From the NCBI GenBank assembly GCA_028284905.1, contig JANQQU010000089.1:62001-126000 (forward strand): a stretch of DNA of 64,000 bases, written 5' to 3'. The stretch comes from Calditrichia bacterium (GTDB taxonomy: Bacteria; Calditrichota; Calditrichia; RBG-13-44-9; J075). Position numbers and translations under genes: made by a program. Under the pieces are notes generated by a model. The model worked only from the letters and a program-made list of their open reading frames with translations. It had not been told where the DNA came from and ran no database searches. Of the stretch, positions 1,292-25,013 are shown one piece after another (the first letter of the stretch is position 1; each line of letters begins with the position of its first letter).

Positions 1292-2032
1292 GTGTTTGTA
1301 AATTTGAGAAATCGAAATGTCGGATCAGTTATTCTTCCCATTTTGTTGTTGTTATTGATGAGTGTAATGGGATTAGCCGATGAAAAGGCGTTGACAGGCA
1401 CAGGCGAAGATGAGAATGGAAGCTCAGATTTTTTACAACAAGGCAGTAGGCAGTCTGGTTTGGTTTTTATCCCCGGTGATGCAGTCTCTATTTCCACATT
1501 ACCGGACTCTTCCTCGTTTTTGAATAATGTATTTCCGATTGATGATCGCGGTTTTGTAGAATTACCGATCTATGGAAAAATCAAAATCTCGCATATGACT
1601 GCCGATCAGTTGGTAACATATCTGAGAGATCAGTTCGAGGAACAATTGATCTACAATGATATTCAGGTAAAGCCAATGATTCGTATCAGCGTATTGGGCG
1701 GTATTCCGCTGCCTGGCTTTTATTATGTTGATCCCGATCATTCTCTCTGGGAAGTTATGCGTCTTGTTGGCGGCACCCAGGATGAAGATGGTTTACGGGA
1801 TATGCGCTGGAAACGCAGTGGTGAGAATATCGAGGACGACCTGATTCCTTCCCTGCAAAGCGGAATTTCCCTGAAGCGGATGGGATTTCGTTCCGGAGAT
1901 CAAATTTGGGTAAGAACGCCCAACAAACCAGGCACGCTGGAAAAAGTTCGCGGTTACCTGAACTTAATTACCGCCACGGCATCTGCAGCAACCCTGATCA
2001 TTACATATCAAATTGCATTGAAAGACCGTTAA
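1292..2032 (+). CDS. Wza-like polysaccharide export protein
   Basis: A 246-residue exported protein of the polysaccharide biosynthesis/export (OPX, Wza-like) family. The hydrophobic N-terminus (about residues 10-30) is a Sec-type signal without a lipobox cysteine. The Poly_export domain starts near residue 53 (FIPGDAVSIS) and continues through FPIDDRGFVELPIYGKI. An SLBB-like segment follows (ISVLGGIPLPGFYYVDPDHS). The C-terminus ends in a hydrophobic stretch (about 225-240) that could be the outer-membrane helix or an anchor. It is shorter than E. coli Wza, as is common in the synthase/EPS OPX subfamilies. The GTG start is chosen because GGAGG lies 6 bases upstream. It should form the export channel that works with the Wzc-like kinase encoded next. 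Confidence 0.88.
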   Translation: MFVNLRNRNVGSVILPILLLLLMSVMGLADEKALTGTGEDENGSSDFLQQGSRQSGLVFIPGDAVSISTLPDSSSFLNNVFPIDDRGFVELPIYGKIKISHMTADQLVTYLRDQFEEQLIYNDIQVKPMIRISVLGGIPLPGFYYVDPDHSLWEVMRLVGGTQDEDGLRDMRWKRSGENIEDDLIPSLQSGISLKRMGFRSGDQIWVRTPNKPGTLEKVRGYLNLITATASAATLIITYQIALKDR

Positions 2033-2151: not shown

Positions 2152-4509
2152 ATGAATATCAGCAGCAACGGGCAAAGAAAGTTGAACAACAGCTTTGCTG
2201 AGAATGAGAATGAAGTAAAACGGTATCTGCGGATAGCCAAGAAACGGAAATGGGTCATTATTATTACATTTCTGACCGTCTTTTTCGGATGGCTGGGCTA
2301 TGTAATTGTTTTTGGCAGCTCTCCGACCTATTCGGCTACAGCATTGCTGCATTTTCAAAATTCCGGTAAAGACCTCGTCATTGGTGGTGAGGGTGGTTCA
2401 AAGACAAACGAAAGTAAGGCCACCTGGCTGGAGACCAATCGCCTGATCGGTCAAGTGGTTGAAGAATTACAGCTAAATCTATCCATGGCAACAGAAAATG
2501 TCAGCCGGGAGCATTTCTTCACTTATGTCGATGTTAATTCGGAAAGTGTCGGCGGTATTTACCGGGTAGTTCCCGGAGCTGAGAAATACGATTTGATGTA
2601 TTTCCTGAAATCTGAAGAAGAGCCGGGCGAAATTTTAATGTCTTTCCTTCCTGAAGACACCGTCCAGATTAACAACATTACTTTTCAGGTAAACCAGGAA
2701 TACATTCAGAATTCCCCGCATGAGACGATTTCCTTTAAAGTTCGCAATGCGGATCTGGCGATTAAAACGCTGAAGAGCCGTATTTCCTACGGCTGGCTCG
2801 ATCGTAAGACAAAGAATAATCTGAAAATTTCTGCAACGGACAAGTCCCCCACCCGGGCGGCTCAGATTACCAATGTTGTCGCAGACAAATTTGTTTACTT
2901 CGACTCCTATGTTAAAAATCTGAAAAACTACGAAACCCTGGAAAACCTGGAAAAGCAGCTGGAAGTTGCCAAAATTGATCTGGATAATTCCAACCGCCAG
3001 TTACAGATATTCCGGGAAAGAAACCCAACCGTTCAGGATGTAAACACCACCGCAACCATTACTGCGGATGAGCAAAGTAAAAATACGATTCAATTACGCA
3101 TTGATGACTTGAATCGTTTAGCTACCAAGGCAGCAGCATCCGCCGATTTTGAAGATAAAATCGATTATCATAAAGAACTCGTTTCCTATTTGATTGCTGA
3201 AGGCGTTCCTTCTGCGACAGTATTTGACGGAGAGTTTATTGCACTCAAACAAAAACGCGATGAGTTGTTAACCCGTTATCGCAACAACAGCAAACACCCG
3301 AATGTGCAGGCAAATACTGCCCAGTTTGCGCCGCTGTTCCCGAAAATCACATCCGCCAGTGCAGAGCATATCAATAAACTGCAAAGCCAGATTAACGGAT
3401 TGAACAACAAGATTAATAGAGTGCGCAGAAATTTGGCAACCCTGCCGGAAAAGCAGCGTCGCCTCTCGGAATTAGTTGTTGATCAAGGTGTAAAAAGCCA
3501 GCTGTATGAATCACTGCTTTCCAAATTCAACCAGGCAAAGATCAAAACGGAAGTTGAAGTTGGTGACGTTTTCGTTTTCGATAAAGCCACCGTTCCTCCG
3601 CTGCAAAGCAGTAGCGGCCTGATCCTTCAAAAATCGTTGCTAGGTCTGTTGATCGGCCTCGGCCTCGGTATTGCACTGGCAATTGTTCTGGAATTTTTTG
3701 ATAAAACTGTCCAGACCGCGGAAGACCTGGAAAGTAAACTGAAACTGCCGGTTATCGGCACCATTCCGGTAATTCAGGGTGGCGAAGATATGCCGGAGAA
3801 TATCAAGGACATAAAGGGTAAACGGGATACCAAGTTAATTACCCTGGACTATTCTCCAACGCTGGAATCGGAATCTTACCGAGATATCCGTACGAAACTA
3901 CTCTTTATGAATCAGAACCGGAATTTATCATCATTCCTGCTGACTAGTTTACGTCCCAGTGAAGGAAAATCGCTGACATCATCCAATTTGGCAATCACTT
4001 TTGCCCAGCAAAAAATCTCTACCCTGTTAATCGACGCAGACTTACGTCGGGGCGTTCTGCATAATGTTTATGGCAACAAAAAGAAGCCCGGCCTGGGAGA
4101 TTTCCTGATCTCGAAAGCAACAGTCGATTACGAAAACGTTAATAAACTGATCCAGAAGACAATCATTCCGAATCTTTATTTGATTACGACCGGTTCTCCG
4201 ATTCCGAATCCGACAGAGATGCTCGGTTCGGAAAGAATGATTAATCTTCTTAACGTTCTAAAGTCTCGTTTCGGTATGGTAATTCTGGATACCGCTCCTT
4301 TCCAGGCCAGCTCCGATTCTGCGATTCTTTCTTCTGCCGTTGGTGGCGTGGTTGTGGTTGTTCGGGCGGATTATACCAACATTGAACAGCTCAATCAGAA
4401 AATCCATGAATACCCGAACATCCAGGAAAACATTCTTGGCCTGGTATTAAACATGGTTAAGATGGACATGAAAAAAGAACGCTATCAGTACTCTTATTAT
4501 AACTATTAA
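2152..4509 (+). CDS. Wzc-like polysaccharide co-polymerase with BY-kinase domain
   Basis: A 785-residue inner-membrane chain-length determinant and bacterial tyrosine (BY) kinase. Transmembrane segments lie near residues 32-54 and 488-512. Between them is the periplasmic Wzz domain with a long coiled coil (about 250-460). The cytoplasmic kinase carries a Walker A motif with K606 (SLRPSEGKS), Walker A' LLIDADLRR (D628, D630) and Walker B VILDTAP (D713). The C-terminus ends in a tyrosine cluster (RYQYSYYNY), the usual autophosphorylation site of BY-kinases. It follows the Wza-like gene and is closed by a strong terminator, so 217-4509 looks like one transcription unit. Its likely opposing phosphatase is the LMW-PTP domain fused to an ATP-grasp protein at 16174-17925. 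The annotation is secure; the chemistry of the polymer is not known. Confidence 0.95.
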   Translation: MNISSNGQRKLNNSFAENENEVKRYLRIAKKRKWVIIITFLTVFFGWLGYVIVFGSSPTYSATALLHFQNSGKDLVIGGEGGSKTNESKATWLETNRLIGQVVEELQLNLSMATENVSREHFFTYVDVNSESVGGIYRVVPGAEKYDLMYFLKSEEEPGEILMSFLPEDTVQINNITFQVNQEYIQNSPHETISFKVRNADLAIKTLKSRISYGWLDRKTKNNLKISATDKSPTRAAQITNVVADKFVYFDSYVKNLKNYETLENLEKQLEVAKIDLDNSNRQLQIFRERNPTVQDVNTTATITADEQSKNTIQLRIDDLNRLATKAAASADFEDKIDYHKELVSYLIAEGVPSATVFDGEFIALKQKRDELLTRYRNNSKHPNVQANTAQFAPLFPKITSASAEHINKLQSQINGLNNKINRVRRNLATLPEKQRRLSELVVDQGVKSQLYESLLSKFNQAKIKTEVEVGDVFVFDKATVPPLQSSSGLILQKSLLGLLIGLGLGIALAIVLEFFDKTVQTAEDLESKLKLPVIGTIPVIQGGEDMPENIKDIKGKRDTKLITLDYSPTLESESYRDIRTKLLFMNQNRNLSSFLLTSLRPSEGKSLTSSNLAITFAQQKISTLLIDADLRRGVLHNVYGNKKKPGLGDFLISKATVDYENVNKLIQKTIIPNLYLITTGSPIPNPTEMLGSERMINLLNVLKSRFGMVILDTAPFQASSDSAILSSAVGGVVVVVRADYTNIEQLNQKIHEYPNIQENILGLVLNMVKMDMKKERYQYSYYNY

Positions 4510-4758: not shown

Positions 4759-5727
4759 ATGAGTATTTATTTGATTACCGGATGTGCAGGTTTTATTGCC
4801 TCCAAAGTTGCAGAAAAACTCCTGAAAGACGGCCATCAGGTTGTCGGTATAGATGATATCAATGATTATTATGATCCCCGTTTAAAAGAATGGCGACTGA
4901 AGCAACTCCAGCAGTTGGAAGGATTCACATTCTACAAGGATGACGTTCGTAATCGCGCTGCCATCGAGCCACTGTTTCAAAAATATCAATTTGCAGCCGT
5001 TTTTAATCTCGCCGCCCGTGCCGGTGTGCGCGCCAGTGTGGAGAATCCCTGGATTTATTATCAAACAAACACTGAAGGCACCCTGAATCTGCTCGAATGC
5101 TGCCGCACTTATGATGTGAAGAAGTTTATGCTCGCTTCCACCTCGAGTATTTATGGCAATAGCGAGATTCCTTTCAATGTTGCGAAAAAAACAGACCTGC
5201 CGCTCTCTCCCTATGCAGCATCGAAGAAAGCTGCCGAGGCACTTGCCCATTCATATCACTACCTCTATGGCATTGATGTGTTCATTCCCCGTTATTTCAC
5301 CGTATACGGACCGGCAGGACGCCCGGACATGTCTTACTTTAACTTCATGCTGAAAATCGATAACAATCGCCCTATTGACGTTTTTGGAGATGGATCGCAA
5401 TCGCGCGATTTCACCTTTGTCGATGATGTTGCCGAAGCAACGATTCGTGGGCTGGCACTGGAAGGATATAATATCTATAATGTTGGCAACGACGAACCAA
5501 CCGGCCTGATGGAGATGATCAAGATCATCGAAAGACTGATGGAAAAGCCGGTAAATATCAACTTTCACCCACGCCACCCGGCCGATAATCTGAAAACCTG
5601 GGCAGACCTGACACATACAGAAAAATTGCTTAACTGGAAACCGGGTACTCCTATAGAAACCGGCTTGGCAAAAGTACTTGCCTGGTATAAAGAAAACCGG
5701 GATTGGGTCAAACACCTTAACGTGTAA
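4759..5727 (+). CDS. NAD-dependent nucleotide-sugar epimerase (UDP-glucuronate 4-epimerase-like)
   Basis: A 322-residue cytoplasmic short-chain dehydrogenase of the extended (GalE/RmlB) type. The N-terminal Rossmann motif is GCAGFIASK. The active site shows the Ser region ASTSSIYG and the catalytic YxxxK as YAASK. The segment GIDDINDYYDPRLK resembles UDP-glucuronate 4-epimerases, which supply UDP-galacturonate; a UDP-glucose or UDP-GlcNAc epimerase is also possible. Two in-frame starts compete. ATG 4759 is preferred to TTG 4753 because TTGAGG lies 8 bases upstream. It should provide an activated sugar for the two glycosyltransferases of the locus and lies 7 bases before the FemAB-like gene. 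Confidence 0.88.
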   Translation: MSIYLITGCAGFIASKVAEKLLKDGHQVVGIDDINDYYDPRLKEWRLKQLQQLEGFTFYKDDVRNRAAIEPLFQKYQFAAVFNLAARAGVRASVENPWIYYQTNTEGTLNLLECCRTYDVKKFMLASTSSIYGNSEIPFNVAKKTDLPLSPYAASKKAAEALAHSYHYLYGIDVFIPRYFTVYGPAGRPDMSYFNFMLKIDNNRPIDVFGDGSQSRDFTFVDDVAEATIRGLALEGYNIYNVGNDEPTGLMEMIKIIERLMEKPVNINFHPRHPADNLKTWADLTHTEKLLNWKPGTPIETGLAKVLAWYKENRDWVKHLNV

Positions 5728-5734
5728 ATCAAAA

Positions 5735-6772
5735 ATGAATAACCTTAAAATTGAAAGCTGGGATACGCCCCCTCAGGGTTGGTCCCAGTATGTTGAGAAC
5801 CATCCTGAAGGCAAACTTTACCACCTCCCGGAATGGAACGACGTCGTGAACAGATCCCTGGGCCGCAGCGCCCGCTATATAACGCTGAAGCGTGCTGACA
5901 AAATTTGTGGCGTTCTCCCCCTGACCGAGTTCACTTCAAAAATTTTCGGCCGTTTCGCGGTTTCCCAACCGTTTATTAACTATGGTGGGCCATTACTGGA
6001 TGATGATTCCCTGCTCGCTCCGCTGGCTGAATATCTCGCAGGCGTGCGTAAGGAAAATGACTACAAGCATGTAGAATTACGGATGGATCGGCAGTATGAG
6101 ACTGCCCTCCCGGTTAAGCAACATAAAGTTACGTTTTTTATGGACTTGCCGGAAGATCCGGATGAACTGATGAAGTCTTTTAAGTCCAAATTACGTAGCC
6201 AGATCAAGCGGCCGATTAAAGAAGAGATGACCGCCAAATCCGGCGGACTGGATCTGCTTGATACGTTCTACCATGTATTCACCGTCAACATGCGGGAATT
6301 GGGCACCCCTCCCCTGCCGAAGTCGTTCTTTCGGGAGATATTAAAACAGTTTCCCGATCTGGCAACGATCGTTGCAGTTTTCACTAAATCCGGTGAAGCT
6401 GCAGCCGCATCTTTCCTGATTAAGTATCGCGATATTGTGGAAATTCCCTGGGCATCTTCTATCCGGAAATTTAATCGTTTTAGTCCGAACATGCTCCTTT
6501 ACTGGGAATCTTTTCGCACATCGATTGAGAATGGCGGAAAAGTTTTCGACTTCGGCCGTTGCTCCCCGGAAGGCGGCACCTATCGTTTCAAGAAACAATG
6601 GAAATCCCGGGAACATCCACTGTTCTGGTATTACGTACTGCCGAACGGTGAAGACCTGCCTGAATTAAATCCGGATAACGCTAAATTTTCCCTGGCGATT
6701 AAAACCTGGACGAAGTTGCCCCTCAGCGTTACTAAAATTGTTGGACCGCAAATCATTAAGAATATTCCCTAG
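5735..6772 (+). CDS. FemAB-like aminoacyl/peptidoglycan-type transferase (EPS-associated)
   Basis: A 345-residue protein with the double-GNAT fold of the FemAB/FemX family. Visible hallmarks are FFMDLPEDPDELMKSFKSK followed by a basic LRSQIKRPIKE segment, the central AAASFLIKY strand and the C-terminal GKVFDFGRCSPEGGTYRFKK stretch. It resembles the FemAB subfamily found beside exosortase/EPS loci. Classical FemAB enzymes transfer amino acids from aminoacyl-tRNA; what the EPS-linked subfamily transfers is not established. ATG 5735 is chosen because longer in-frame starts would run into the epimerase. With three ATP-grasp proteins nearby, it supports the idea of amino-acid decoration of the glycan, which is inference. 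Confidence 0.85.
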   Translation: MNNLKIESWDTPPQGWSQYVENHPEGKLYHLPEWNDVVNRSLGRSARYITLKRADKICGVLPLTEFTSKIFGRFAVSQPFINYGGPLLDDDSLLAPLAEYLAGVRKENDYKHVELRMDRQYETALPVKQHKVTFFMDLPEDPDELMKSFKSKLRSQIKRPIKEEMTAKSGGLDLLDTFYHVFTVNMRELGTPPLPKSFFREILKQFPDLATIVAVFTKSGEAAAASFLIKYRDIVEIPWASSIRKFNRFSPNMLLYWESFRTSIENGGKVFDFGRCSPEGGTYRFKKQWKSREHPLFWYYVLPNGEDLPELNPDNAKFSLAIKTWTKLPLSVTKIVGPQIIKNIP

Positions 6773-11890: not shown

Positions 11891-11915
11891 AACAGATACG
11901 ATTGTGGAATTTAAG

Positions 11916-13091
11916 ATGACTAAAAAGAAAAAACCTCCGGTCGTTATTTTAGGCGGCTCATCCAATGCACTGGCAGTTGCCCGCACATTGGGTAAACGTG
12001 GCATTGATATCTACCTTGCGGTGATGGAGAGAAATTGTGCGACATTCACCCGTTATGCGAAAAAGGTATACCCGATTCATGATAAGAAAAAGATAGCGGA
12101 GAACTGGCGCGATCTGCTGCTTTCCGGCCAGCATGCCTATCTACATGGCAGCGTCGTATTTCCCTGTAATGATGACGCCCTGGAATTTATCGCCAACCAT
12201 AGAAAAGAATTGCAAACACATTACATTCTCGACGAATCCGACCCGGAATTTGTATTGAACATGCTCAACAAACGACGGACCCTGGAGCTCTCCGAGAAGA
12301 TTGGCATCCCCTATCCAAAATTTGCCGCGATTGAATCTCGCGAAGATATCGAAAAAATAGATAAAGACATCCAGTTTCCGCTGATTGTCAAACCACAGCA
12401 TTCTCATCTTTTTCAGAAAGCATTTAACGGGGAAAAGCTCTTCTTCGTTAATAACTGGGATGAACTTCATCAACGCCTGGCGCAGGTTTTGGAGAATGAT
12501 CTGAAAGTCATTCTCAACGAGATGATTCCCGGACCGGATACGCAATTAGCCAGTTATTATACTTATATCGATAAAAATGACAACCTGCTTTTTCATTTCA
12601 CCAAAAAAGTGATTCGCCGCTTTCCGAAAAACAACGGACAAGGCTGCTACCATGCAACAGAGTGGAATCCGGAAGTTGCGGAAGTTGGTTTGCGCTTTTT
12701 TAAGGGCGCCGGATTACGTGGGCTTGGTAACGTGGAATTCAAGAAAGATCTGCGCGATGGGCAATGGAAAATTATTGAGTGTAATGCGCGTTTCACCGCG
12801 GCTCATGAGCAATTGATTCGTTGCGGCATGGATACTTCGTTAATCGTCTACAATCACCTTGTTGGTTTACCGGTACCGAAGATCGATACTTTCCAAGAAA
12901 ATGTCACCCTCTGGTTCCCCCGGCGTGATTACCTGGCATATAAAGAACTAAAGCAGCTGGGCGAACTCTCTTTTGGCGGCTGGCTGAAAAGTATCGCCAA
13001 GCCCCAGGTATTACCGCATTTTCGCTTTCTGGACCCGATGCCGACAATATCACCATTTATTGACTCTGTTAAAAACCGGCTTTTCGGTTGA
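11916..13091 (+). CDS. ATP-grasp carboligase-like protein (COG3919 type)
   Basis: A 391-residue protein with an N-terminal pre-ATP-grasp Rossmann-like domain (PVVILGGSSNALAVARTLG) and an ATP-grasp domain: FPLIVKPQHSHLF as the lysine strand, KVILNEMIPGPDTQ, and WKIIECNARFT as the acidic metal-binding strand. It is paralogous to the N-terminal half of the protein at 16174, since both share the opening LG..........LG pattern and order of motifs. Members of this group are described only as putative ATP-dependent carboxylate-amine ligases. ATG 11916 is preferred over an in-frame GTG at 11904 because GTGGAA lies at a suitable distance upstream. It may act with the preceding ligase in modifying a glycan precursor. 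Confidence 0.82.
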   Translation: MTKKKKPPVVILGGSSNALAVARTLGKRGIDIYLAVMERNCATFTRYAKKVYPIHDKKKIAENWRDLLLSGQHAYLHGSVVFPCNDDALEFIANHRKELQTHYILDESDPEFVLNMLNKRRTLELSEKIGIPYPKFAAIESREDIEKIDKDIQFPLIVKPQHSHLFQKAFNGEKLFFVNNWDELHQRLAQVLENDLKVILNEMIPGPDTQLASYYTYIDKNDNLLFHFTKKVIRRFPKNNGQGCYHATEWNPEVAEVGLRFFKGAGLRGLGNVEFKKDLRDGQWKIIECNARFTAAHEQLIRCGMDTSLIVYNHLVGLPVPKIDTFQENVTLWFPRRDYLAYKELKQLGELSFGGWLKSIAKPQVLPHFRFLDPMPTISPFIDSVKNRLFG

Positions 13092-13411: not shown

Positions 13412-14740
13412 ATGAGCGTTACCGCGATATTTTTTCTGATTTTTTACGTCGGCGGGTTATTGTTAACCTTTCGCAACCCCTATTATGGTGTCTTAACCTA
13501 CATGTTCGAATGGCATTATCATCCGCCTTATTATTGGTGGGGAGATGAAGTACCGGATTTCGTCGGAGGCCGTTGGTCCTTTGCTATCGCATTGGCAACA
13601 TTGGTCAGCTGGATTATACATCGCCGTAAACTGGCGCCTTTACATGAACCAAAATACACCACAAGTATCTGGTTATTATTTATAATTTTAAATATGCTTT
13701 GGGTCTCTGTGGGTGTGGCGATTCTTCCCGACGTCAGCATGGACAAAACCAACGAAATTTTCAAAGTATGGATTAGCTTCCTCCTGATAACTACCTTGAT
13801 TCGCACCTTCAAGGATTATGAGTTAATGGTCTGGCTATTATTACTTTGGGCGACCTATTGGGGATTTACCTCCTGGCAAGTTGGGGGGAACCGCGATATC
13901 GGGGTAATGGCGCCGAACACTACCGAGGAAAATGCGGTTTCGGCGCATATAATTGCCATAATGCCATTCTTCGGAGTTTACTTCCTGAAAGGCAATCGCT
14001 GGGGGAAAGGCCTGGCAGTCGTCGGCATCGTCTTTGCGATTAACCTGCTGATTCTGGCGAATAGCCGTGCGGCGCTGGTCGGTCTGGCCGCTATTGCACT
14101 GGCATCTATCTTCCTTTTTAAAGGCAAGATTCGTTTCGCTGCAATTCTCGGCATACTCGTTGTAGGATTTCTCTTTAGTCAATTAGGTAATGAAACCTTT
14201 GCTGAACGACAATCTACCCAAACTTATGATGATGGCTCTGCAACCAGCCGATTACACCTTTGGGCCGGTGGATGGGAAATGTGGAAGGACCATCCCTTCG
14301 GGGTTGGCGGTGGAGGGTTTATAGATCTCTCCATGGAATACGTTCCGGAAATACATAGTCCGAAATCCCAGCACAATACTTTCGTAGCGGTTTTTACCGA
14401 CTGGGGCTTCTTCGGGCTTATTTTCTACCTGGGCTTCCTGGGACACACCTTTTTTATACTAGCGAGGATAAAGAGTGAGGCGAAGCGAATGCCAATGCTC
14501 AAAAAATTTGGGCCTGAAGCCACAGCCGTACAGCTAGCGCTGATCGGTCTTTGTGGCGCCGGTTTGTTCCATAGTCGCCAATATGCAGAAATTGTCTACT
14601 GGCTCTGTTCTTTTTCCCTGATGCTGCAAAATATAATGAAAACTGAAGTTGAAATGATGAAGCGGGAGCTGGATAAACCGATTAAAACCGATGATTTTCC
14701 GGAAACGGCAACGTCGCTCCTCCAAAACCCGGTAACATAA
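13412..14740 (+). CDS. O-antigen ligase/polymerase-like membrane protein (Wzy_C family)
   Basis: A 442-residue polytopic membrane protein with about ten to twelve hydrophobic segments. The Wzy_C/O-ligase core is visible as LILANSRAALVGLAAIAL, then the large periplasmic loop with SRLHLWAGGWEMWKDHPFGV and HSPKSQHNTFVAVFTDWG. The N-terminus (FRNPYYGVLTYMFEWHYHP) resembles the EPS/exosortase-associated O-ligase subfamily. It is the best candidate for the Wzy polymerase or for a ligase that moves the glycan to an acceptor; sequence does not separate these. Its stop codon overlaps the start of the next glycosyltransferase by one base, so the two are translationally linked. Confidence 0.88.
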   Translation: MSVTAIFFLIFYVGGLLLTFRNPYYGVLTYMFEWHYHPPYYWWGDEVPDFVGGRWSFAIALATLVSWIIHRRKLAPLHEPKYTTSIWLLFIILNMLWVSVGVAILPDVSMDKTNEIFKVWISFLLITTLIRTFKDYELMVWLLLLWATYWGFTSWQVGGNRDIGVMAPNTTEENAVSAHIIAIMPFFGVYFLKGNRWGKGLAVVGIVFAINLLILANSRAALVGLAAIALASIFLFKGKIRFAAILGILVVGFLFSQLGNETFAERQSTQTYDDGSATSRLHLWAGGWEMWKDHPFGVGGGGFIDLSMEYVPEIHSPKSQHNTFVAVFTDWGFFGLIFYLGFLGHTFFILARIKSEAKRMPMLKKFGPEATAVQLALIGLCGAGLFHSRQYAEIVYWLCSFSLMLQNIMKTEVEMMKRELDKPIKTDDFPETATSLLQNPVT

Positions 14741-16143
14741 TGAAACGACTATTAATTGTATCGACAAATTTTCCGCCATCGATATCGATTGGCACCCAGC
14801 GGATTCTGCGAATATCCAAGTATCTGGATCCTTCACAGTGGCAGGTATCTGTCCTGACCTTAAAGGAACATTACTATCCTGATATGAGTCATCGCACCGA
14901 TGATGATAAAGGTGATATCCTTAATAAATTAAATATCCACCGCGCCGGTAAAATTGACCCGGTTGAAAGCATGCTGAAGCTCCGGGAATCTATTAGTGGC
15001 AATGGCAAGCAGAATAACAGCGGCATCGCCAAAGCAGCTCCCAAGAAAAAAGAATCGGAAAAAAATGGCAAGGCGAATTATTCCGAAAAAATCAAGGCAA
15101 AACAGAAGCAATCCTTCTGGTCGCAAATAAAAGATTTTGCGACTGGCATTATGCAATTTCCCGATAAAAACGTCACATTCTTTCCCCTGGCGCTGATGCG
15201 CGGATATCGGATTATCAAAAAAGAGAAAGTCGATGTTATTTTCTCCAGTTCCCCTCCGCACAGTATGCACCTGATCACCGTTTGGCTGAAAAAGCTAACC
15301 GGTAAAAAACTGGTGGTCGATTTCCGTGATCCCTGGGCCCGTTCCCCCTGGCATGATGAAGAGCGGGAATTGAACAAGTTTGAGCAGTGGAAGCATGATA
15401 AAATTGTTTCCCTGGAAAAATGGGTTGTCGAACATGCCGACAAGGTGGTTCTGGTAACCAAAGAGATGCGTGACGATTATGTCCGTCATTATGATTATTT
15501 ACCGGCAGATAAATTTATCTGGTTTTCCAATGGCTATGATCCCGATACGGTTCAACCCAATGCTATGTATCGCAATGGAAAAACCGAAGCACCGGAAAAG
15601 GTTAAATTTATTCATGCCGGTTCGTTGTACAAATATCGCGACCCTACCACTATCCTGAAGGCATTGAAGCTACTGGTGGATAAGAAAGAAATCGATCGTT
15701 CCAGAATTGAGTTTCTCTTCATCGGGGGCATCAATACCGACCAGGCACATATTCCTGATATGACCAAAGAAATGGGCATCGATGACATGGTTAATTTTAT
15801 GCCACCGGTCAGCTATAATTCAGTGATGGAGTATATGGTCGCCAGTCACATCCCGATTCTCCTGCAGCCGGTGACCCGCCTGCAGCTACCGGGGAAATTT
15901 TTCGATTATCTCTGCCTGCAAAAGCCAATACTGGCTGTGGCAGAGCCGGAAAGTGCGACGAAACATATGGTCGAAGAGCATTTTGGCATCTTCGGTGATG
16001 TGAACAAAGTGGAAGATGTTGCCAAAGCGATCAAGTTTCTCTACGACAATCCGTTCTACAACTTCAATACAATCGAAGAGAAACGCGAAAAGTTCAACAT
16101 GGCGAAATCCATTCACACTTTCCAGGAAATACTGAACGTTTAA
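14740..16143 (+). CDS. Glycosyltransferase (GT4-like) with lysine-rich insert
   Basis: A 467-residue GT-B glycosyltransferase. The N-terminal domain starts KRLLIVSTNFPPSISIGTQR, which is typical of GT4 enzymes of surface-glycan loci. A charged, Lys/Asn-rich insertion at about residues 95-130 (PKKKESEKNGK) looks disordered. The acceptor domain continues with VVDFRDPWARSPW, and the donor domain has FIHAGSLYKYRDP and QLPGKFFDYLCLQKPILAV. It lacks the fully canonical E-x7-E spacing, so the family assignment is less firm than for the gene at 6777. The start codon overlaps the preceding stop codon. Confidence 0.85.
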   Translation: MKRLLIVSTNFPPSISIGTQRILRISKYLDPSQWQVSVLTLKEHYYPDMSHRTDDDKGDILNKLNIHRAGKIDPVESMLKLRESISGNGKQNNSGIAKAAPKKKESEKNGKANYSEKIKAKQKQSFWSQIKDFATGIMQFPDKNVTFFPLALMRGYRIIKKEKVDVIFSSSPPHSMHLITVWLKKLTGKKLVVDFRDPWARSPWHDEERELNKFEQWKHDKIVSLEKWVVEHADKVVLVTKEMRDDYVRHYDYLPADKFIWFSNGYDPDTVQPNAMYRNGKTEAPEKVKFIHAGSLYKYRDPTTILKALKLLVDKKEIDRSRIEFLFIGGINTDQAHIPDMTKEMGIDDMVNFMPPVSYNSVMEYMVASHIPILLQPVTRLQLPGKFFDYLCLQKPILAVAEPESATKHMVEEHFGIFGDVNKVEDVAKAIKFLYDNPFYNFNTIEEKREKFNMAKSIHTFQEILNV

Positions 16144-16173: not shown

Positions 16174-17925
16174 ATGCAGCAGTATAAAGCTTTGGTTCTC
16201 GGCGTTGACGAACGTAGTGCATTAACCGTCGTTCGTTCTTTGGGCAGACATGACATCACGGTTCATTTAGGGCGGGATATCCCATTTTCGCCGGCACAAC
16301 TATCAAAATATGTTTCGGAAGTTGTCCAATTCCCCAACGCCGGGCATGATCCTGACGAGTGGGTGCAGGCGCTAATCGCCCACTTGCAAAAAGAAACATA
16401 CGACCTTGTTATTCCAACTGTCGATAAATACCTGGTACCGGTCATGCAACACCGGGAAACCCTGGAGAAGCTTGCCAAATTCGCCATTCCGGACGAGCGG
16501 GGATTCGAATACACCTACCGAAAGAGCAAAACCCTGGAACTGGCGAAACAAGTCGGCGCCCCCATTCCGAAAACCATTCAGGTAGACAGTATCGATCAAC
16601 TCCCGGAAGTTGAAGCAAACTTCGAATTCCCCCTGATCGTCAAACCGGTTTCCTCAAAAGTTTTTATCAACAATATCCGTTATGATATGAATGTGGAACT
16701 GGCGAAAAGCCGGGAAGATCTGGAACGTCGGCTTACCCGTATCCTCCAGTTCTGTCCGGTATTAATTCAGTCATTCCACGGGGGCATTGGTGTCGGACAG
16801 GAATTCCTAATGCGCGATGGCGAGGTGATTGCTGCTTTTCAGCACGACCGGGTTCACGAACCGCTGGGCGGTGGTGGCAGCAGCTACCGGAAAAGCGCGC
16901 CACTAATTCCGGAATTGTATGAAGCCTCAGTAAAAATGCTGAAGGAAATTAAATGGACCGGCGTGGCGATGGTGGAATACAAATACGATTACGAAAAGAA
17001 ATCCGGTATTCTCATCGAAATTAACGGCCGCTTTTGGGGCTCCGTGCCTTTGCCGGTAGCAGCAGGCGTCGATTTCCCGGCATTGCTTTTCGATATGCTG
17101 GTAAAGGATAAAGTGCCCGCAAAGCCACCGGCGTACAAATACAATGTTTATTGCCGTAACTTCCCGAAAGATTTTGAATGGTTCAAAGCCAATTTGCGTG
17201 CTGACAAAAAGAACCCCTTTTTAATGACTCGCCCGCTGCCAAAAGTGTTTGGCGAGGTCTTTAATTTACTGCTATTGCGGGAACATTATGACACTTTAGT
17301 GATGGATGATCCCCGTCCCGGTTTTAAGGTTATTGGCGGCTATATCGGTGAACAATTCCGGGGCGCGTTTGATAAACTTTATACCGCCGGTATTAAACTC
17401 AATTACCGCTTTAATGGTTTAACGCGGCGCAGTAAAGTCCGCCGTATCGAAAAACTGGTTAAAGCGAATCCTTATGTTTCCTTTGTTTGCAAAGGCAATA
17501 TCTGCCGCAGCCCATTTGCCGATTACTATCTGCAGCAATTAATTAGCAAGGGCGCTTCCAAAGATATCCGGGTGGAATCATACGGCTTAATCGAACGGGT
17601 TAACCGCCCCAGCCCGGAGCTGGCGGTGGAAGCGGCAAAGTCATTCGAAATTGATATGTCCGTGCATCGCTCCAAATTACTCACCCAGGGCATCGTTGAT
17701 CGTTCCGGGGTGTTGTTCATTATGGACATCGAACTTTACAAACGGGTACGTGCCTTGTATCCTTCTGCGAAAGATAAATTATTCTTTCTCGGTGTGCTCC
17801 AGAATAGCGCCGATAAACCGATAGAAATCGATGATCCTTATGGAAAAGGTATCGATAAATTCAAATTTGTTTTTAAACAAATTATCCAATCCGTGGATAA
17901 GCTGTCACGGTTGGCCGGGAGCTGA
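16174..17925 (+). CDS. Fusion of an ATP-grasp ligase and a low-molecular-weight protein tyrosine phosphatase
   Basis: A 583-residue two-domain protein with no frame break. Residues 1 to about 400 form a pre-ATP-grasp plus ATP-grasp unit of COG3919 type: KALVLGVDERSALTVVRSLG, FPLIVKPVSSKVF, and GILIEINGRFWGS as the metal-binding strand. Residues about 432-575 form a complete LMW-PTP: the P-loop VCKGNICRSP gives the catalytic C439 and R445, and the general-acid loop is DDPYG (D554-P555). LMW-PTPs of EPS loci (Wzb) dephosphorylate the tyrosine tail of Wzc, and no separate phosphatase gene was seen in the window. The fusion therefore probably ties the Wzc phosphorylation cycle to a ligase step; that link is inference. 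The gene lies 30 bases after the glycosyltransferase. Confidence 0.9.
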   Translation: MQQYKALVLGVDERSALTVVRSLGRHDITVHLGRDIPFSPAQLSKYVSEVVQFPNAGHDPDEWVQALIAHLQKETYDLVIPTVDKYLVPVMQHRETLEKLAKFAIPDERGFEYTYRKSKTLELAKQVGAPIPKTIQVDSIDQLPEVEANFEFPLIVKPVSSKVFINNIRYDMNVELAKSREDLERRLTRILQFCPVLIQSFHGGIGVGQEFLMRDGEVIAAFQHDRVHEPLGGGGSSYRKSAPLIPELYEASVKMLKEIKWTGVAMVEYKYDYEKKSGILIEINGRFWGSVPLPVAAGVDFPALLFDMLVKDKVPAKPPAYKYNVYCRNFPKDFEWFKANLRADKKNPFLMTRPLPKVFGEVFNLLLLREHYDTLVMDDPRPGFKVIGGYIGEQFRGAFDKLYTAGIKLNYRFNGLTRRSKVRRIEKLVKANPYVSFVCKGNICRSPFADYYLQQLISKGASKDIRVESYGLIERVNRPSPELAVEAAKSFEIDMSVHRSKLLTQGIVDRSGVLFIMDIELYKRVRALYPSAKDKLFFLGVLQNSADKPIEIDDPYGKGIDKFKFVFKQIIQSVDKLSRLAGS

Positions 17926-18041
17926 TTTTTTGAGAGAAAAATAGCAGTTCTGGGAATCTAAGATATAGTGGGTGTAATTTTATTTTAATCATCCCGGATA
18001 AATTAGATTCCAAACCAGTGTCTTTTATGGAAGAATCAGCA

Positions 18042-19559
18042 ATGGCAAAGAATGTTGGCTCGCAGGCAAAAGAAGGTGTTTTTTGGACTTTCTTATTTGA
18101 CGCGATAGAAGTGGTTTTCAGCTTCATCGTGGGCATTGTGTTAGCCAGAGTACTCGGCCCGGCGGTATACGGAATTATGGGAATGGTATCAATTGCCACC
18201 CAGTTTGCCCGGCGTCTTGGGAATTTCGGTTTCAGCACTGTGCTCGTTCAGCTGAAGGAAGTTCGAAACGAGCATTACGATACGGTCTATTACATTAATA
18301 TTCTCTTAATGAGTATCGTTGGTGCGGTTATCATTTTTTCAGCCCCGGCAGTGGCGCGTTTCTTTGATACAGATGTTCTCAATTCGATTCTGCCCATTGT
18401 TGCGCTGGATTTTTTATTGAAGGCCTTCGCCAGTGTGCCGCAGGCGATTCTGAAAAGGGAGATGCGATTTAAAGAACTTGGAATGGCCCAATCGGTCGGG
18501 AAATTCACCGGGATTTCCTGTCAGCTGGTTTTAGCACTTACCGGTTATGGTATATGGTCTTTGGTCATTGGCGCGGTTGTCGGTAGCTTCGCCTATCGCA
18601 GCGCGGTTATCTTCTTTTCCCGGAAAGTAGCAGATTGGCGGCCGGGATTACGCTTTAGTAAAGTTGCTTTAAAGGAATGCTTTTCTTTTGGTGCATGGAT
18701 TTATGTCAGTAGCTTCATCAGCTTTGGGATTAACAAAGTTGACTATATTTTAATCGGCCGTTTTTTGGGCGATGCGATGCTCGGCGCTTATGAGAAAGCC
18801 TTCGAGTTAATGAGCCTCCCCCGAAAGAAGCTGGTGCGAAAAGTGAACAGCGTGTTGTTTTCCAGCTATTCACGTATTCAGGATGATAATCAACGGGTTG
18901 CCAGTGCGTTTTTACAGGTGGTAAGTTATCTGGCCTTTATTACCTATCCGCTTATGACCTGGCTATTTTTTGTCGCGCCATCATTAATTTCGATTGTTTA
19001 TGGCAGCGACTGGCTGGCAGTTATCGTACCTTTGCAAATTATGTGTATCGCAGGAGTGATTGACTCCTATACGCTAATTTTTCAACCGTTGATGAAGGCA
19101 AAAGGACTGGTAGGCAATCATGCCCGCCGGGATTTTTTCTACCTGGCAGTTCTGATAATCGCCGTATGGCTGGGCATACAATCCGGCAAGGGAATTATCG
19201 GCGTTGCCAGTGGCGTAGCGATGGTATCTTTTATCCGTTTAGGAATGATGATGCAATTAGCGACGCGCCATCTCCCGATTACAGTCCTGCAGTTCATTCG
19301 GGCCCAGCGGTCGGCGGCTGTTTACGTCTGCATACAGATTGCAATTTTACTGGCTGTACAATATTTCGCCAGGCCTTATTTCCACGTGGATTCCTGGGAG
19401 ATGTTAGCAAGCGTAACGATACTATCTCCAATCCTGTTTTTCGGCGCACATAAAATTATCCGCTTTCAGGATGTGGAAACGATCTGGAAAGACATTGCCA
19501 AAGACACAGGAAAATTGATGCGCAAAGTGCCACTATTGAAAAAGTTGGCGGCCCGTTAA
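18042..19559 (+). CDS. Wzx-like oligosaccharide flippase, copy 1
   Basis: A 505-residue membrane protein of the MOP/polysaccharide-biosynthesis (Wzx, WzxC-like) superfamily with about 12-14 hydrophobic segments. Recognisable blocks are GVFWTFLFDAIEVVFSFIVG, FGFSTVLVQLKEV and the charged loop SLPRKKLVRKVNSVLFSSYS. Wzx proteins flip undecaprenyl-linked repeat units to the periplasm. ATG 18042 is chosen because GGAAGAA ends 6 bases upstream and because the resulting N-terminus matches the next paralogue; an in-frame ATG at 18027 and GTG at 18018 are less likely. It is closely related to the gene that follows, so it arose by tandem duplication. Confidence 0.9.
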   Translation: MAKNVGSQAKEGVFWTFLFDAIEVVFSFIVGIVLARVLGPAVYGIMGMVSIATQFARRLGNFGFSTVLVQLKEVRNEHYDTVYYINILLMSIVGAVIIFSAPAVARFFDTDVLNSILPIVALDFLLKAFASVPQAILKREMRFKELGMAQSVGKFTGISCQLVLALTGYGIWSLVIGAVVGSFAYRSAVIFFSRKVADWRPGLRFSKVALKECFSFGAWIYVSSFISFGINKVDYILIGRFLGDAMLGAYEKAFELMSLPRKKLVRKVNSVLFSSYSRIQDDNQRVASAFLQVVSYLAFITYPLMTWLFFVAPSLISIVYGSDWLAVIVPLQIMCIAGVIDSYTLIFQPLMKAKGLVGNHARRDFFYLAVLIIAVWLGIQSGKGIIGVASGVAMVSFIRLGMMMQLATRHLPITVLQFIRAQRSAAVYVCIQIAILLAVQYFARPYFHVDSWEMLASVTILSPILFFGAHKIIRFQDVETIWKDIAKDTGKLMRKVPLLKKLAAR

Positions 19560-19589: not shown

Positions 19590-21158
19590 ATGGCAGAGAA
19601 TCAAAAACCGAAGAAGAAGAAAAAGAAAGAACAGGATGTTGCCTCCCAGGGTAAGCAGGGGGTATTCTGGACGGCGCTTTTTCAAAGCATAGAATCCGTT
19701 TTGCGATTCGCCAGCAGCATCGTTCTTGCCCGGGTGCTTTTCCCGGAAGATTTTGGATTGATGGGACTTGCCTCTATCGTCATCCAGCTGGCGCGCCGCC
19801 TGACCAACTTTGGTTTTAGCACCGTTCTGGTTCAGCTGAAGGAAGTTAAGCGGGAGCATTATGATACCGTTTTTATCATGAATTTTACCCTGATGGCCGG
19901 ACTGGCAGCGCTGCTCTTTTTCGGCGCCCCATATTATGGGCAATTCTTCGAAAGCGAAAACTTTCTCGATAGCAGTGAACTCCAACTGATCATTATGTGG
20001 CTGTCCTTCGATTTTCTCATTAAAGGACTTTCCAGCGTCCCGCAGGCGATCCTGAAGCGCCAGATGAAATTCAAAGAATTGGGGCTTTCCCACACTATTG
20101 GTAAGTTTGTTTCCCTGGGTTCTACCGTTGCTCTTGCATTGCTCGGTTTCGGCGTTTGGTCATTGGTTTATGGCGTACTGCTTGGTAGCCTTACCATCAA
20201 ACTGCAAGTCATCTTTTATGCCCGCTGGTTACCGACATTCCGCTTCCGTTGGTGGGCGTTTAAAGATTCATTTTCCTTCGGTCTCTGGTTATATGTTGGT
20301 GCCTACATCAGCTATGGCATCAATAAAGTAGATTATTTCATTATCGGAAAATTCCTTGGTCCGGCAATGCTCGGTTTTTACGAGCGCGCCTTCGATTTGA
20401 TGAGCCTGCCGCGCAAGCGCATCGTCCGCAAAGTAAACAGCGTATTTTTTGCGACCTATTCCCGCTTACAGGATGATAACCCTCGTTTGGTTCGCGGGCT
20501 GCTGCAAGTCACCCGCTATCTTTCGATCATATCGTATCCGTTTATGATTTGGATGTTTTTTGCTGCACCGGCACTCATCACTAATCTCTACGGAGATAAA
20601 TGGCTACCGACAGTGCTTCCGTTGCAGATCATGTGCATCAGCGGTATTCTCGATTCCTTTACCCTGATTTTCCAGCCGCTGCTGAAAGCAAAAGGCTGGG
20701 TAGGCAACAAAGCCCGGCGCGATATGCTTTACCTGGTTATTCTCGCCGGCAGCGTTTATGCTTTATTGCCCTGGGGCATTGTCGGGGTTGCCGGTGGGGT
20801 TGCGGTTGCCTCTATTATTCGCCTTGGCATTATGCTGCAACTCACCGTTAAACGCTTGCCGATGACGGTATTACAATTTTTCGGCGCGATGCGTTCCGCT
20901 ATTGTCTATGGCGCGATTCAGGCATCTGTCATTTACGGCGCACAAATACTTTGCCGCCCATATTTCGCAGATACCTCGATTCCGATGTTTATCCTGGTCA
21001 GCGTCCTCTCCGCAATCACCTTTTTCGGGGCGCATATGATTATCCGCTTTAAGGATCTTGAAGAAATTTTCCAGGACTTTTTTAAGGAACTGCGCAAATT
21101 TGCGCGCAAATTGCCCGTGGTTAAGAAGCTTGGTATTTTACAACCGGCGAAAAAATAA
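19590..21158 (+). CDS. Wzx-like oligosaccharide flippase, copy 2 (tandem paralogue)
   Basis: A 522-residue flippase that aligns with its upstream neighbour along its whole length. Shared stretches include GFSTVLVQLKEV, SSVPQAILKRQMKFKELG (ASVPQAILKREMRFKELG in copy 1) and SLPRKRIVRKVNSVFF. It differs by a Lys-rich cytoplasmic N-terminal extension (KPKKKKKKEQ). Two flippases in one locus may serve two lipid-linked substrates, or one copy may be redundant. The gap to copy 1 is 30 bases. Confidence 0.9.
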   Translation: MAENQKPKKKKKKEQDVASQGKQGVFWTALFQSIESVLRFASSIVLARVLFPEDFGLMGLASIVIQLARRLTNFGFSTVLVQLKEVKREHYDTVFIMNFTLMAGLAALLFFGAPYYGQFFESENFLDSSELQLIIMWLSFDFLIKGLSSVPQAILKRQMKFKELGLSHTIGKFVSLGSTVALALLGFGVWSLVYGVLLGSLTIKLQVIFYARWLPTFRFRWWAFKDSFSFGLWLYVGAYISYGINKVDYFIIGKFLGPAMLGFYERAFDLMSLPRKRIVRKVNSVFFATYSRLQDDNPRLVRGLLQVTRYLSIISYPFMIWMFFAAPALITNLYGDKWLPTVLPLQIMCISGILDSFTLIFQPLLKAKGWVGNKARRDMLYLVILAGSVYALLPWGIVGVAGGVAVASIIRLGIMLQLTVKRLPMTVLQFFGAMRSAIVYGAIQASVIYGAQILCRPYFADTSIPMFILVSVLSAITFFGAHMIIRFKDLEEIFQDFFKELRKFARKLPVVKKLGILQPAKK

Positions 21159-22242: not shown

Positions 22243-24006
22243 ATGAAACCAACTGCCAAATACATCCTTTTAATATGCCTGACGCTGATAATGACATCAC
22301 TCCCATTAGCGGCTCAGAACAAAATAATTGCGCTCATACCGGAATTTAAGATTAACCCGATTTCCGGCGAACTGGTCGGTGATGGGGAAAACCTGGCCAC
22401 TCTGCAAAAGCGTTTTAACTTATTGGACAAACAGAACAAAATGCAGTTGGAGGCAGTTAGCGGAGAAACAGCGGTATTTCAGTTGATATTGCCAGCAGAT
22501 AATGCCCTGCGTCTGCTTCCCCTGACAGATGAAAACATCGATTTTCGTATTTATCAAGCCGGCACTGTTCGTGGTCCGGAAACGAAAGAAGGTCAGGCTT
22601 TGCCGGACATCCTCTTCCCACTGCAAGCCAGTGCAGATGGGGAATATGCACCCTGGCGCAACAACGACTTAATCCCGGCAAACAGCCGCTATTTTCTTTT
22701 TTGGATAGAATTAGTCACAGCTTCTTTAAACACTGATCAAACCATCCCGGCGAAACTTAAAATCCGTAGCAACGGCAATGAACAGGAAATATTGATCAAT
22801 CTGATCGTCGATGCGGAAAAACTCCCTCCTGCCCCACTGATGATCGACTTCAATGAATATGGGGACAAGTATCTGCAGGTATTTCGGAAGCACGGCTCGC
22901 CGGCAGAACTTCATCAAGTAGAAGCATCCGTTTTTCAGCTTGCTGCTGAGCATTACGGTAGCATGAATCCACTTCCTTACAAAAGCCAGCAAGGAAAACC
23001 CCGCGATGGCATGGTGCCGGTTATGGTGAACAACGACCCGCTCAATCCGCAGCTGGACTGGCGGGAATATGATGCCCGTTTCGGCAAATTCCTTGATGGC
23101 AGCGCTTTTCCCGATGGGCAACCGATCGATCATCTTTATTTGCCCTTTAATCCCTACTGGCCGGCGGACTTTCGGCTGTATATTTCCGATCGGGAACGCT
23201 ACGAAGCGATTTGGATAGCAACGGCAAAAGCCTTTATCGCACATTTCCGGGAAAAAGGATGGACGGAAACCACTTTCCAGGTCTATTGCAATCAAAAGCC
23301 GAATAAAGGCGGCGGGGTTCCCTGGCATCTTGATGAGCCGAAAAGCGTGAAGGATTATGAAGGATTGCGCTATTATCATGACTTAGCGAAACGTGCCTTT
23401 GCCGGTGCTGACGATTTAAAAATCCGCTTCCGGATCGACATTTCGCATTTCTACTGCAACCAGCATGAAGGGCGGCAGGACAAAGATTTTCGCGTCAATG
23501 GCGGTGGCGAGATTTTAGCCCCGGTTGATATCTGGGTCATTTCCCGTCATTCTATGTACGATGCTGCGGCGATCAAACAGGCGAAAAAACTGCAAGCGCA
23601 AGGAAAAGAGGTTTGGGTATATGCCGAAACGCCCAAGCTGAAAGAAAGCGGCCAAAGAAGCATTCAGCGTATTTATCATAGCTGGAAGCATCAATTCGAC
23701 GGTGTGTTAATCTGGCGGACATTCGCTCGAAAACTTCACAAAAGAAAAGGCTCGGAATATATTTTATATGCTATTGACAGTGCCGGTGAAAAGGGCGTTT
23801 ATCCCTCAATCCGCCTGAAACAATTCAAACGGGCATTCGAAGATGTCCGCCTGTTTGAACTGGCCATTGAGAAAGGCCACCTTGAGCGGGAAGCGGTGCA
23901 GGAAATAGCAGAGAAATATGCCGAAGGCAACCTTGAGGACATTTGGCAATATCGCACCACTTTACACAAGATTTTACTGGAAGAGCAAAAAATGGGGAAG
24001 AACTAG
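22243..24006 (+). CDS. Secreted DUF4091-like (glycoside-hydrolase-like) protein
   Basis: A 587-residue exported protein with a clear Sec signal peptide (about residues 1-26, cleavage near PLAAQ). An N-terminal beta-rich part (about 30-195) precedes a TIM-barrel-like domain. The end shows DUF4091 features: FDGVLIWRTFARKL, then GVYPSIRLKQFKRAFEDVRLFELA, which matches the family pattern of PSIRLE..R.GIED. DUF4091 domains accompany glycoside hydrolases of the GH123-like kind, so polysaccharide cleavage or remodelling in the periplasm or outside is plausible. ATG 22243 was preferred over GTG 22231 because it places the signal peptide at the very N-terminus. The stop codon is 2 bases from the deacetylase start. 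Confidence 0.75.
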   Translation: MKPTAKYILLICLTLIMTSLPLAAQNKIIALIPEFKINPISGELVGDGENLATLQKRFNLLDKQNKMQLEAVSGETAVFQLILPADNALRLLPLTDENIDFRIYQAGTVRGPETKEGQALPDILFPLQASADGEYAPWRNNDLIPANSRYFLFWIELVTASLNTDQTIPAKLKIRSNGNEQEILINLIVDAEKLPPAPLMIDFNEYGDKYLQVFRKHGSPAELHQVEASVFQLAAEHYGSMNPLPYKSQQGKPRDGMVPVMVNNDPLNPQLDWREYDARFGKFLDGSAFPDGQPIDHLYLPFNPYWPADFRLYISDRERYEAIWIATAKAFIAHFREKGWTETTFQVYCNQKPNKGGGVPWHLDEPKSVKDYEGLRYYHDLAKRAFAGADDLKIRFRIDISHFYCNQHEGRQDKDFRVNGGGEILAPVDIWVISRHSMYDAAAIKQAKKLQAQGKEVWVYAETPKLKESGQRSIQRIYHSWKHQFDGVLIWRTFARKLHKRKGSEYILYAIDSAGEKGVYPSIRLKQFKRAFEDVRLFELAIEKGHLEREAVQEIAEKYAEGNLEDIWQYRTTLHKILLEEQKMGKN

Positions 24007-24008
24007 TT

Positions 24009-25013
24009 ATGCGGGATGCTATAAAAGACGTCGCATTTAATGGATTGGGCCATCTCGGCGTCTATAAACGCCGCCGCCAGGCAAATATTGATAAGGCAAT
24101 CGTGCTAACCTATCATGGTATTGTGCCGGAGATTCCAGCAGGTGCGCCAACATTTGAATACCGGAATTTCGTTACTACCAGTCAGTTTGAAGAACAAATT
24201 CAATTTCTCCTGCGGAACTATCGTCCGTTAAAAGCTGCTGACTTGTATACGCCGGGTGTGAGTGTAGAGGGCGGATTTTTAATCACTTTTGATGATGGTT
24301 TTCGCAATAACTATCAATATGCCATGCCTATTCTGAAACAATACGGCATACAGGGATGCTTCTTCATAACTACGAATCTAATCGGTACCCGGGAACTACT
24401 CTGGACAGAGCAGGTTACCCTGATGCTGGAACGCACTAAAAAGCCCGCTGTCACCCTGGAACTTGATGCACCGCAAACTTTTTCCCTCGCCGATCCACAA
24501 CAACGGGAGGAGGCCTCCAGGGGGATTCGTAAACATTTAAAGCTCATGTCCTCGGCCCGCTTGCGGAAAGTAATGCAGCAAATGAAATCCCAACTGGATG
24601 ACGTTCCGCTCACCGTCGGCAAGACAGAAGAAGAGCGCTATTTGTTTATGACCTGGGACGAAGTGCGCGAGATGGTCGCCAATGACCAGTTAATTGGCGC
24701 CCATACCCACAATCATCCAATGCTGGCAACGTTAACCGAAGAAGAAAGCTGGCAGGAATTAAGCTTGTGTAAGGAAGCGATCGAGAAGGAAACCGAACAG
24801 CCTTGCTTGACGATGAGCTATCCCAATGGGGAACGGGAGAATTATAATCAAATGAATATCGAGCATCTAAAAAAGCTGGGTTTTAAATGCGCTTTTACCC
24901 AGGTGCCACTTTACAATGATGAGAAGACCGATCTCTTTCAATTGCACCGGGTAAACATCAGCCTGAAAATGTCCTTAAAAGTATTTGAAGCAACGCTCTG
25001 TGGTGTCATTTAA
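24009..25013 (+). CDS. Polysaccharide deacetylase (NodB/CE4 family)
   Basis: A 334-residue CE4 esterase. Motif 1 is ITFDDGF (D95, D96) and motif 2 is GAHTHNHPML (H232, H236), which provide the catalytic base and the metal ligands. It has no clear signal peptide, so it may act on a cytoplasmic precursor or be held at the membrane by its basic N-terminus. It would remove N-acetyl groups from hexosamines, creating free amines. Such amines are possible acceptors for the ATP-grasp or FemAB-like enzymes of this locus, which is inference. ATG 24009 has GGGGAAG about 9 bases upstream; the longer in-frame start would overlap the preceding gene. Confidence 0.9.
   Translation: MRDAIKDVAFNGLGHLGVYKRRRQANIDKAIVLTYHGIVPEIPAGAPTFEYRNFVTTSQFEEQIQFLLRNYRPLKAADLYTPGVSVEGGFLITFDDGFRNNYQYAMPILKQYGIQGCFFITTNLIGTRELLWTEQVTLMLERTKKPAVTLELDAPQTFSLADPQQREEASRGIRKHLKLMSSARLRKVMQQMKSQLDDVPLTVGKTEEERYLFMTWDEVREMVANDQLIGAHTHNHPMLATLTEEESWQELSLCKEAIEKETEQPCLTMSYPNGERENYNQMNIEHLKKLGFKCAFTQVPLYNDEKTDLFQLHRVNISLKMSLKVFEATLCGVI

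Follow-up and report, generated by a model that had tools for sequence, protein, structure and literature searches.

The EPS locus described here raises the question of why an ATP-grasp ligase and an LMW-PTP are encoded as one polypeptide. The window, i.e., the whole stretch of DNA that was analyzed, is 64,000 nt in length and comes from a Calditrichia bacterium (assembly GCA_028284905.1, contig JANQQU010000089.1). The fusion gene is within a co-directional run of plus strand genes that extends from about 1.3 to 27 kb of the window (Table 1). The first part of the run consists of a Wza-type exporter, a Wzc-type BY-kinase, an epimerase, FemAB, glycosyltransferases, an MBOAT-type gene and two ATP-grasp genes. 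These are followed by Wzy, the fusion, two Wzx, a kinase-like gene, a deacetylase and a methyltransferase-kinase. The EPS locus of another Calditrichaceae genome (G031) is organized in a similar way. There are three ATP-grasp genes in this single EPS locus. The second, at positions 10826–11890, is of the cyanophycin-synthetase / GshAB type (TIGR02068 169.7 bits, under the cut-off), and the third is at positions 11904–13091. The gene that closes the cluster (positions 25094–27202) is a 702 aa fusion of a methyltransferase and an APH-like kinase domain.

Table 1. Features of the EPS locus and of the fusion gene, with positions in the window
Feature	Positions	Strand	Remarks
Wza-type polysaccharide export protein	1292..2032	+	PF02563
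Wzc-type polysaccharide co-polymerase and BY-kinase	2152..4509	+	785 aa; tail KERYQYSYYNY; TIGR01007 166.8 bits, cut-off 108; proposed PTP substrate
FemAB-family protein of XrtA/PEP-CTERM EPS loci	5678..6772	+	TIGR03019 330.5 bits, cut-off 260
Wzy_C / O-antigen-ligase-type polymerase	13412..14740	+	PF04932
GT4 glycosyltransferase	14740..16143	+	ends 30 bp before the fusion gene
ATP-grasp ligase and LMW-PTP fusion gene, whole	16174..17925	+	583 aa; ORF, Pfam, AlphaFold2
ATP-grasp domain	16174..17358	+	residues about 1–395; K157, E268, E282, N284, R286 conserved
Helical linker between the two domains, residues about 396–433	17359..17472	+	AlphaFold2 model
LMW-PTP domain	17473..17922	+	residues 434–583
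P-loop C439-K-G-N-I-C-R445	17488..17508	+	C, G, N, I, R and the next S invariant in 27 fused PTPs
D-loop D554-P555-Y556	17833..17841	+	D and P invariant in 27 fused PTPs
Wzx-type flippase, first of two	18018..19559	+	PF13440
Wzx-type flippase, second	19590..21158	+	
Polysaccharide deacetylase-family protein	23943..25013	+	actual start probably further downstream; a type of gene that partners the ATP-grasp family of the fusion

Translation of the fusion gene gives a single stop-free frame of 583 codons. The stop-free ORF, the Pfam matches and the conserved residues bear out the preliminary description, which had claimed that this frame carries an intact ATP-grasp domain and an intact LMW-PTP. 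C439, R445 and D554 are exactly where it placed them, and Y556 and the ATP-grasp residues are present as well. In the C-terminal half, Pfam finds LMWPc (PF01451) at residues 435–577 with an E value of 1.1e-22. The P-loop follows the LMW-PTP pattern CXGNXCRS (C439-KGNIC-R445-S446), and the general-acid Asp is found in a DPY D-loop (D554-P555-Y556). The 27 fused PTPs, whose mean identity is 37%, show no variation at C439, G441, N442, I443, R445, S446, D554 or P555. By its sequence, the PTP is catalytically intact. An arsenate reductase identity for the PTP was also considered, and nothing beyond weak family matches was found. The AlphaFold2 model, made with 39 window and locus sequences, displays two domains (pLDDT 95.2, pTM 0.84) and a helical linker at residues about 381–431. 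A chance ORF is ruled out by the presence of two conserved, confidently modelled domains.

Pfam ATP-grasp matches to the first half are weak: PF15632 has an E value of 2e-06, just under its cut-off, and CPSase_L_D2 one of 2e-05, over its cut-off. None of the NCBIfam equivalogs scores this half over its cut-off. Membership in the ATP-grasp superfamily is seen in the Lys, in the Glu...ExN ligands and in the fold as matched by Foldseek and by a profile search of the PDB. The five residue columns listed for this domain in Table 1 are invariant in an alignment of 15 relatives. A profile of relatives has 2pn1 as its best match among solved structures (E value 3.5e-16). The top Foldseek matches of the fusion model are the L-amino acid ligase RizA and biotin carboxylases, with 2pn1 (TM 0.80 by target) and YwfE also high. 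The fusion thus has a fold and catalytic residues in common with ATP-grasp carboxylate-amine ligases (PRK12767-like 2pn1; RizA and YwfE; PF15632), but identities in structural alignments are 13–18%, and only the fusion is joined to a phosphatase.

The fusion is found in isolates, a complete genome and MAGs from at least seven phyla. Phyla with a fusion include Calditrichota, Planctomycetota, Nitrospirota, Acidobacteriota, Armatimonadota, Verrucomicrobiota, Krumholzibacteriota and Pseudomonadota. Full-length fusions are present in five Calditrichota genomes, and the isolates that carry one are Rhodopirellula JC639, Stieleria tagensis and Gemmata IIL30; the complete genome is CP054190. A sequencing artefact or frameshift at the domain join, a concern raised in the preliminary description, is ruled out because homologues in independent assemblies carry the same join. 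The domain order recurs in many phyla, and the fusion is genuine and old and looks functional. The contig labelled Deltaproteobacteria (L020) has a fusion gene nearly identical to that of a Calditrichaceae contig (L021) and is probably mislabelled or misbinned. A description of the ATP-grasp and LMW-PTP architecture was not found among open-access papers, with subscription literature outside the search; automatic domain databases may list the combination.

The first survey of relatives was biased, as one of the scan patterns, FVCKGNIC, is the PTP motif itself. Many unfused ATP-grasp loci in that set have a PTP close by, and the statement that a PTP adjoins every unfused relative was set aside for this reason. 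An unbiased survey was used instead, with the ATP-grasp domain alone as query against 398 Pseudomonadota and 294 Planctomycetota genomes, the two phyla being named after the locus titles of G040 and G041. It added seven fusions and two linked pairs to the set. A PTP is fused or within 4 kb in 9 of 12 new members of the clade described below, versus 0 of 14 sequences outside the clade; the 12 include L184, which has a broken ATP-grasp frame and was placed in the fused clade by its PTP domain, and L181 and L189, which branch at the base of that clade, where support is weak. The Lys of CKGNICRS was ruled out as a family signature because the unbiased fusions show CYGNIMRS, CYGNINRS, CHGNINRS or CYGNICRS.

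The evolutionary history of the fusion was approached with a quick tree of the ATP-grasp domains, not bootstrapped, and with a PTP tree. In the ATP-grasp tree one clade (support 99) contains all fused and nearly all PTP-linked members. Nested in it are two clades, one linked (97) and one fused (99; 24 members fused, 4 not). In the PTP tree, all 27 fused domains fall in a single clade (SH-aLRT 95) that also takes in L063 but not E. coli Wzb; L063 is a further ATP-grasp-PTP protein with a diverged ATP-grasp half. The two trees, with their linked and fused clades, therefore suggest that the ATP-grasp and PTP genes were probably neighbors in EPS loci before they fused and that the fusion probably arose once, ancestrally. 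The unfused linked PTPs also have an N-terminal extension, at the position of the fusion's linker.

The nearest ATP-grasp relatives that lack the fusion are encoded close to an LMW-PTP, usually also to a polysaccharide deacetylase and often to FemAB and a BY-kinase. They are at home in XrtA/PEP-CTERM EPS loci (TIGR03018 kinase, TIGR03019 FemAB, TIGR03097 ligase). The FemAB protein of the window passes TIGR03019, but exosortase (PF09721) is absent from the genome, and none is found in four other fusion-bearing Calditrichota. In addition, the window kinase is fused to the co-polymerase (Wzc type), in contrast to the split kinase of the XrtA type. A deacetylase is within 4 kb of 27 of the 28 linked-clade ATP-grasp genes versus 0 of 14 other ATP-grasp paralogues; in the fused clade it is nearby at only 7 of 21 loci. 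The ligase is predicted to form an amide on the cytoplasmic side, with an amino sugar or a comparable group as acceptor. Trios of the bacillithiol/mycothiol type consist of a glycosyltransferase, a cytoplasmic deacetylase and a ligase. The logic of a GT4, deacetylase and ligase cassette is alike here, but this is an analogy only, as the ligase family is different and the context is EPS. The glycosyltransferase at one locus (L042) scores 138.8 bits against BshA, which is under the cut-off.

A likely function of the phosphatase half comes from comparison with Wzb, Etp, AmsI and VpsU, LMW-PTPs paired with BY-kinases in Wzx/Wzy loci. Wzb and VpsU take phosphate off tails of the Wzc type and aid production of the polymer (PMC8285477, PMC7485978). 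The fusion PTP has the same fold, the CXGNICRS P-loop and the DPY D-loop, and, as judged by eye, likewise no Trp at the W-loop position. Wzc, Wza, Wzx and Wzy are likewise encoded in its EPS locus. There are also differences. Identity to E. coli Wzb is only about 25%, and Wzb is in a separate clade, where it pairs with a Lysobacter PTP and not with the fusion PTPs in a tree that has few columns and weak deep forks. The NCBIfam Wzb model NF007520 scores the fusion at 44.8 bits, under its cut-off of 243. The Wzb-type enzyme is a stand-alone protein of 147 aa, whereas the fusion PTP is the C-terminal part of a larger enzyme. The fusion does not adjoin wzc as these phosphatases do and is 12–43 kb from it in most loci; in G045 it is adjacent. 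A Wzb-like role is predicted as the best reading of the fusion's PTP and is likely.

The kinase that this role calls for is present in the locus. As previously noted, there is a Wzc-like BY-kinase with a tyrosine tail (YQYSYYNY); it is 11.7 kb upstream of the fusion in the co-directional cluster. Thirteen fusion contigs are long enough to judge proximity with a limit of 45 kb, and 9 of these 13 loci have a BY-kinase within that distance, versus 0.57 expected by chance. At the nine loci the fusion is the sole LMW-PTP, and the kinase tails are Tyr-rich at eight of them; the G046 kinase has few tyrosines. In G043, G048, G543 and G584, whose fusion loci are well flanked, no BY-kinase was found over about 60 kb of upstream sequence or on the contig, and none was found in G655. 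Co-occurrence of the fusion with BY-kinases is strong locally, but it is not significant genome-wide (22/23 vs 15/20, p 0.08). Proximity also follows from mere status as an EPS gene and does not separate a direct partnership from a shared locus.

The claim that there is no other Wzb-like gene is correct within the window but does not extend to the genome. The host genome, of 8.55 Mb, has five LMWPc genes, three BY-kinases over the TIGR01007 cut-off and one CpsB-type phosphatase. The four LMWPc genes other than the fusion are on other contigs and read, by sequence, as YfkJ/PtpA-like, an LMW-PTP beside a heptosyltransferase-like gene, ArsC-like, and a PhoU-ArsC fusion. The last of these (L005:1420–2571, contig C13) encodes 383 aa with PhoU and an ArsC/LMWPc-type domain and is beside phosphate transport genes. 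The CpsB/CapC-type PHP tyrosine phosphatase (G000:C52:241392–242093) is about 71 kb from another BY-kinase. These other LMW-PTPs and the CpsB-type phosphatase could act in trans on Wzc. Lack of a separate Wzb was dropped as proof of the role after comparison with control Planctomycetota. It says little, because BY-kinases without a nearby LMW-PTP are common in these controls, two of which have no LMW-PTP at all.

Some other fusion-bearing or linked-PTP genomes contain more than one BY-kinase. In G045, G074 and G335 a CpsB-type phosphatase is encoded near a BY-kinase other than that of the fusion or linked PTP, and in G129 such a BY-kinase has an adjoining Wzb-like gene. For the kinase that shares its locus with the fusion or linked PTP, that PTP is the only one there (G045, G074 and G129). 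In these four genomes each kinase locus seems to be equipped with a phosphatase of its own, because the other BY-kinases have separate ones. These separate phosphatases, the strong enrichment near BY-kinases and the Tyr-rich tails make it unlikely that the main substrate of the PTP is not the BY-kinase but another pathway protein, e.g., a glycosyltransferase, a sugar-nucleotide enzyme, the ligase itself or its partner. Such a substrate would be compatible with the four long-flanked loci that have no BY-kinase and with the conservation of the PTP beside ATP-grasp, deacetylase and glycosyltransferase genes and not beside the kinase. It would also be compatible with fusions elsewhere in the wider PTP family, where the PTP is joined to a polysaccharide deacetylase (L052, L060) or to a GT4 (L086).

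The deacetylase fusions are at L052:4279–5961 and L060:628–2316, from a gammaproteobacterial MAG and a Desulfobacteraceae MAG. The GT4 fusion (L086:8129–9847, Marinimicrobium) is divergent from an ATP-grasp gene, and a second, partial copy of the pair is at L086:1–1931. With two of the related PTPs joined to a deacetylase and one to a glycosyltransferase, the ligase has no special place among the partners of the PTP. These fusions argue for tethering and not for a dedicated coupling of ligase and phosphatase. As independent fusion events they also suggest that localization matters, and in this respect they count against the proposal that the fusion only secures co-expression of two unrelated EPS enzymes, with a PTP that acts on various proteins and gains no advantage from tethering. 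Fusion of neighboring genes is common, and the unfused relatives do have both genes as neighbors, as that proposal would predict. Nevertheless, one fused clade has been kept over a deep divergence with both active sites intact, and the proposal is judged quite improbable. It is more doubtful still that the fusion is a decoration checkpoint, where precursor occupancy of the ligase would switch the PTP and thereby limit Wzc reset and polymer export to correctly amide-modified repeat units, which is the strong form of the coupling in the preliminary description: the single polypeptide, the helical linker that the model predicts to be confidently folded, and the retention of the fusion across many phyla would fit, but most sister-clade relatives are unfused, related PTPs are joined to other enzyme types, and three members of the fused clade (L173, L177 and L182) have no PTP in or near them. 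Active coupling between the two halves is possible but is not indicated.

The reading that we favor, with somewhat better than even confidence, is that of a bifunctional EPS protein in which the ligase decorates a precursor, the PTP resets Wzc, and the fusion tethers the PTP at the assembly site. The sequences themselves show the fusion, the intact active-site residues and their conservation, the single fused clade, the earlier history of the two genes as neighbors and the nearness to BY-kinases, whereas we infer both substrates as well as the tethering role. The N-terminal ATP-grasp domain would be a carboxylate-amine ligase that most likely decorates a polymer building block on the cytoplasmic side; in the wider ATP-grasp family the product is probably an amide on the amino sugar freed by the neighboring deacetylase. 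The C-terminal LMW-PTP is most likely the locus's own phosphotyrosine phosphatase, which would take phosphate off the tyrosine tail of the Wzc BY-kinase. The dephosphorylated kinase would then reassemble, and polymer export would go on. The fusion probably sets the phosphatase at the cytoplasmic site of assembly. The preliminary description had proposed that the physical joining of the two enzymes would tie assembly of the polymer to a modification step. Its interpretation is supported in part, by the recurrent domain order and the nearness to BY-kinases; there is no need to assume direct signalling from ligase to phosphatase.

The survey reveals a conserved module of deacetylase, ATP-grasp ligase and PTP in EPS loci, of which the open-access papers searched gave no description. 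The fusion joins a likely modification enzyme to a likely resetting phosphatase and is widespread, and it offers a genetic and biochemical handle both on what triggers the cycle of Wzc phosphorylation and dephosphorylation and on how export of the polymer is matched to its modification.
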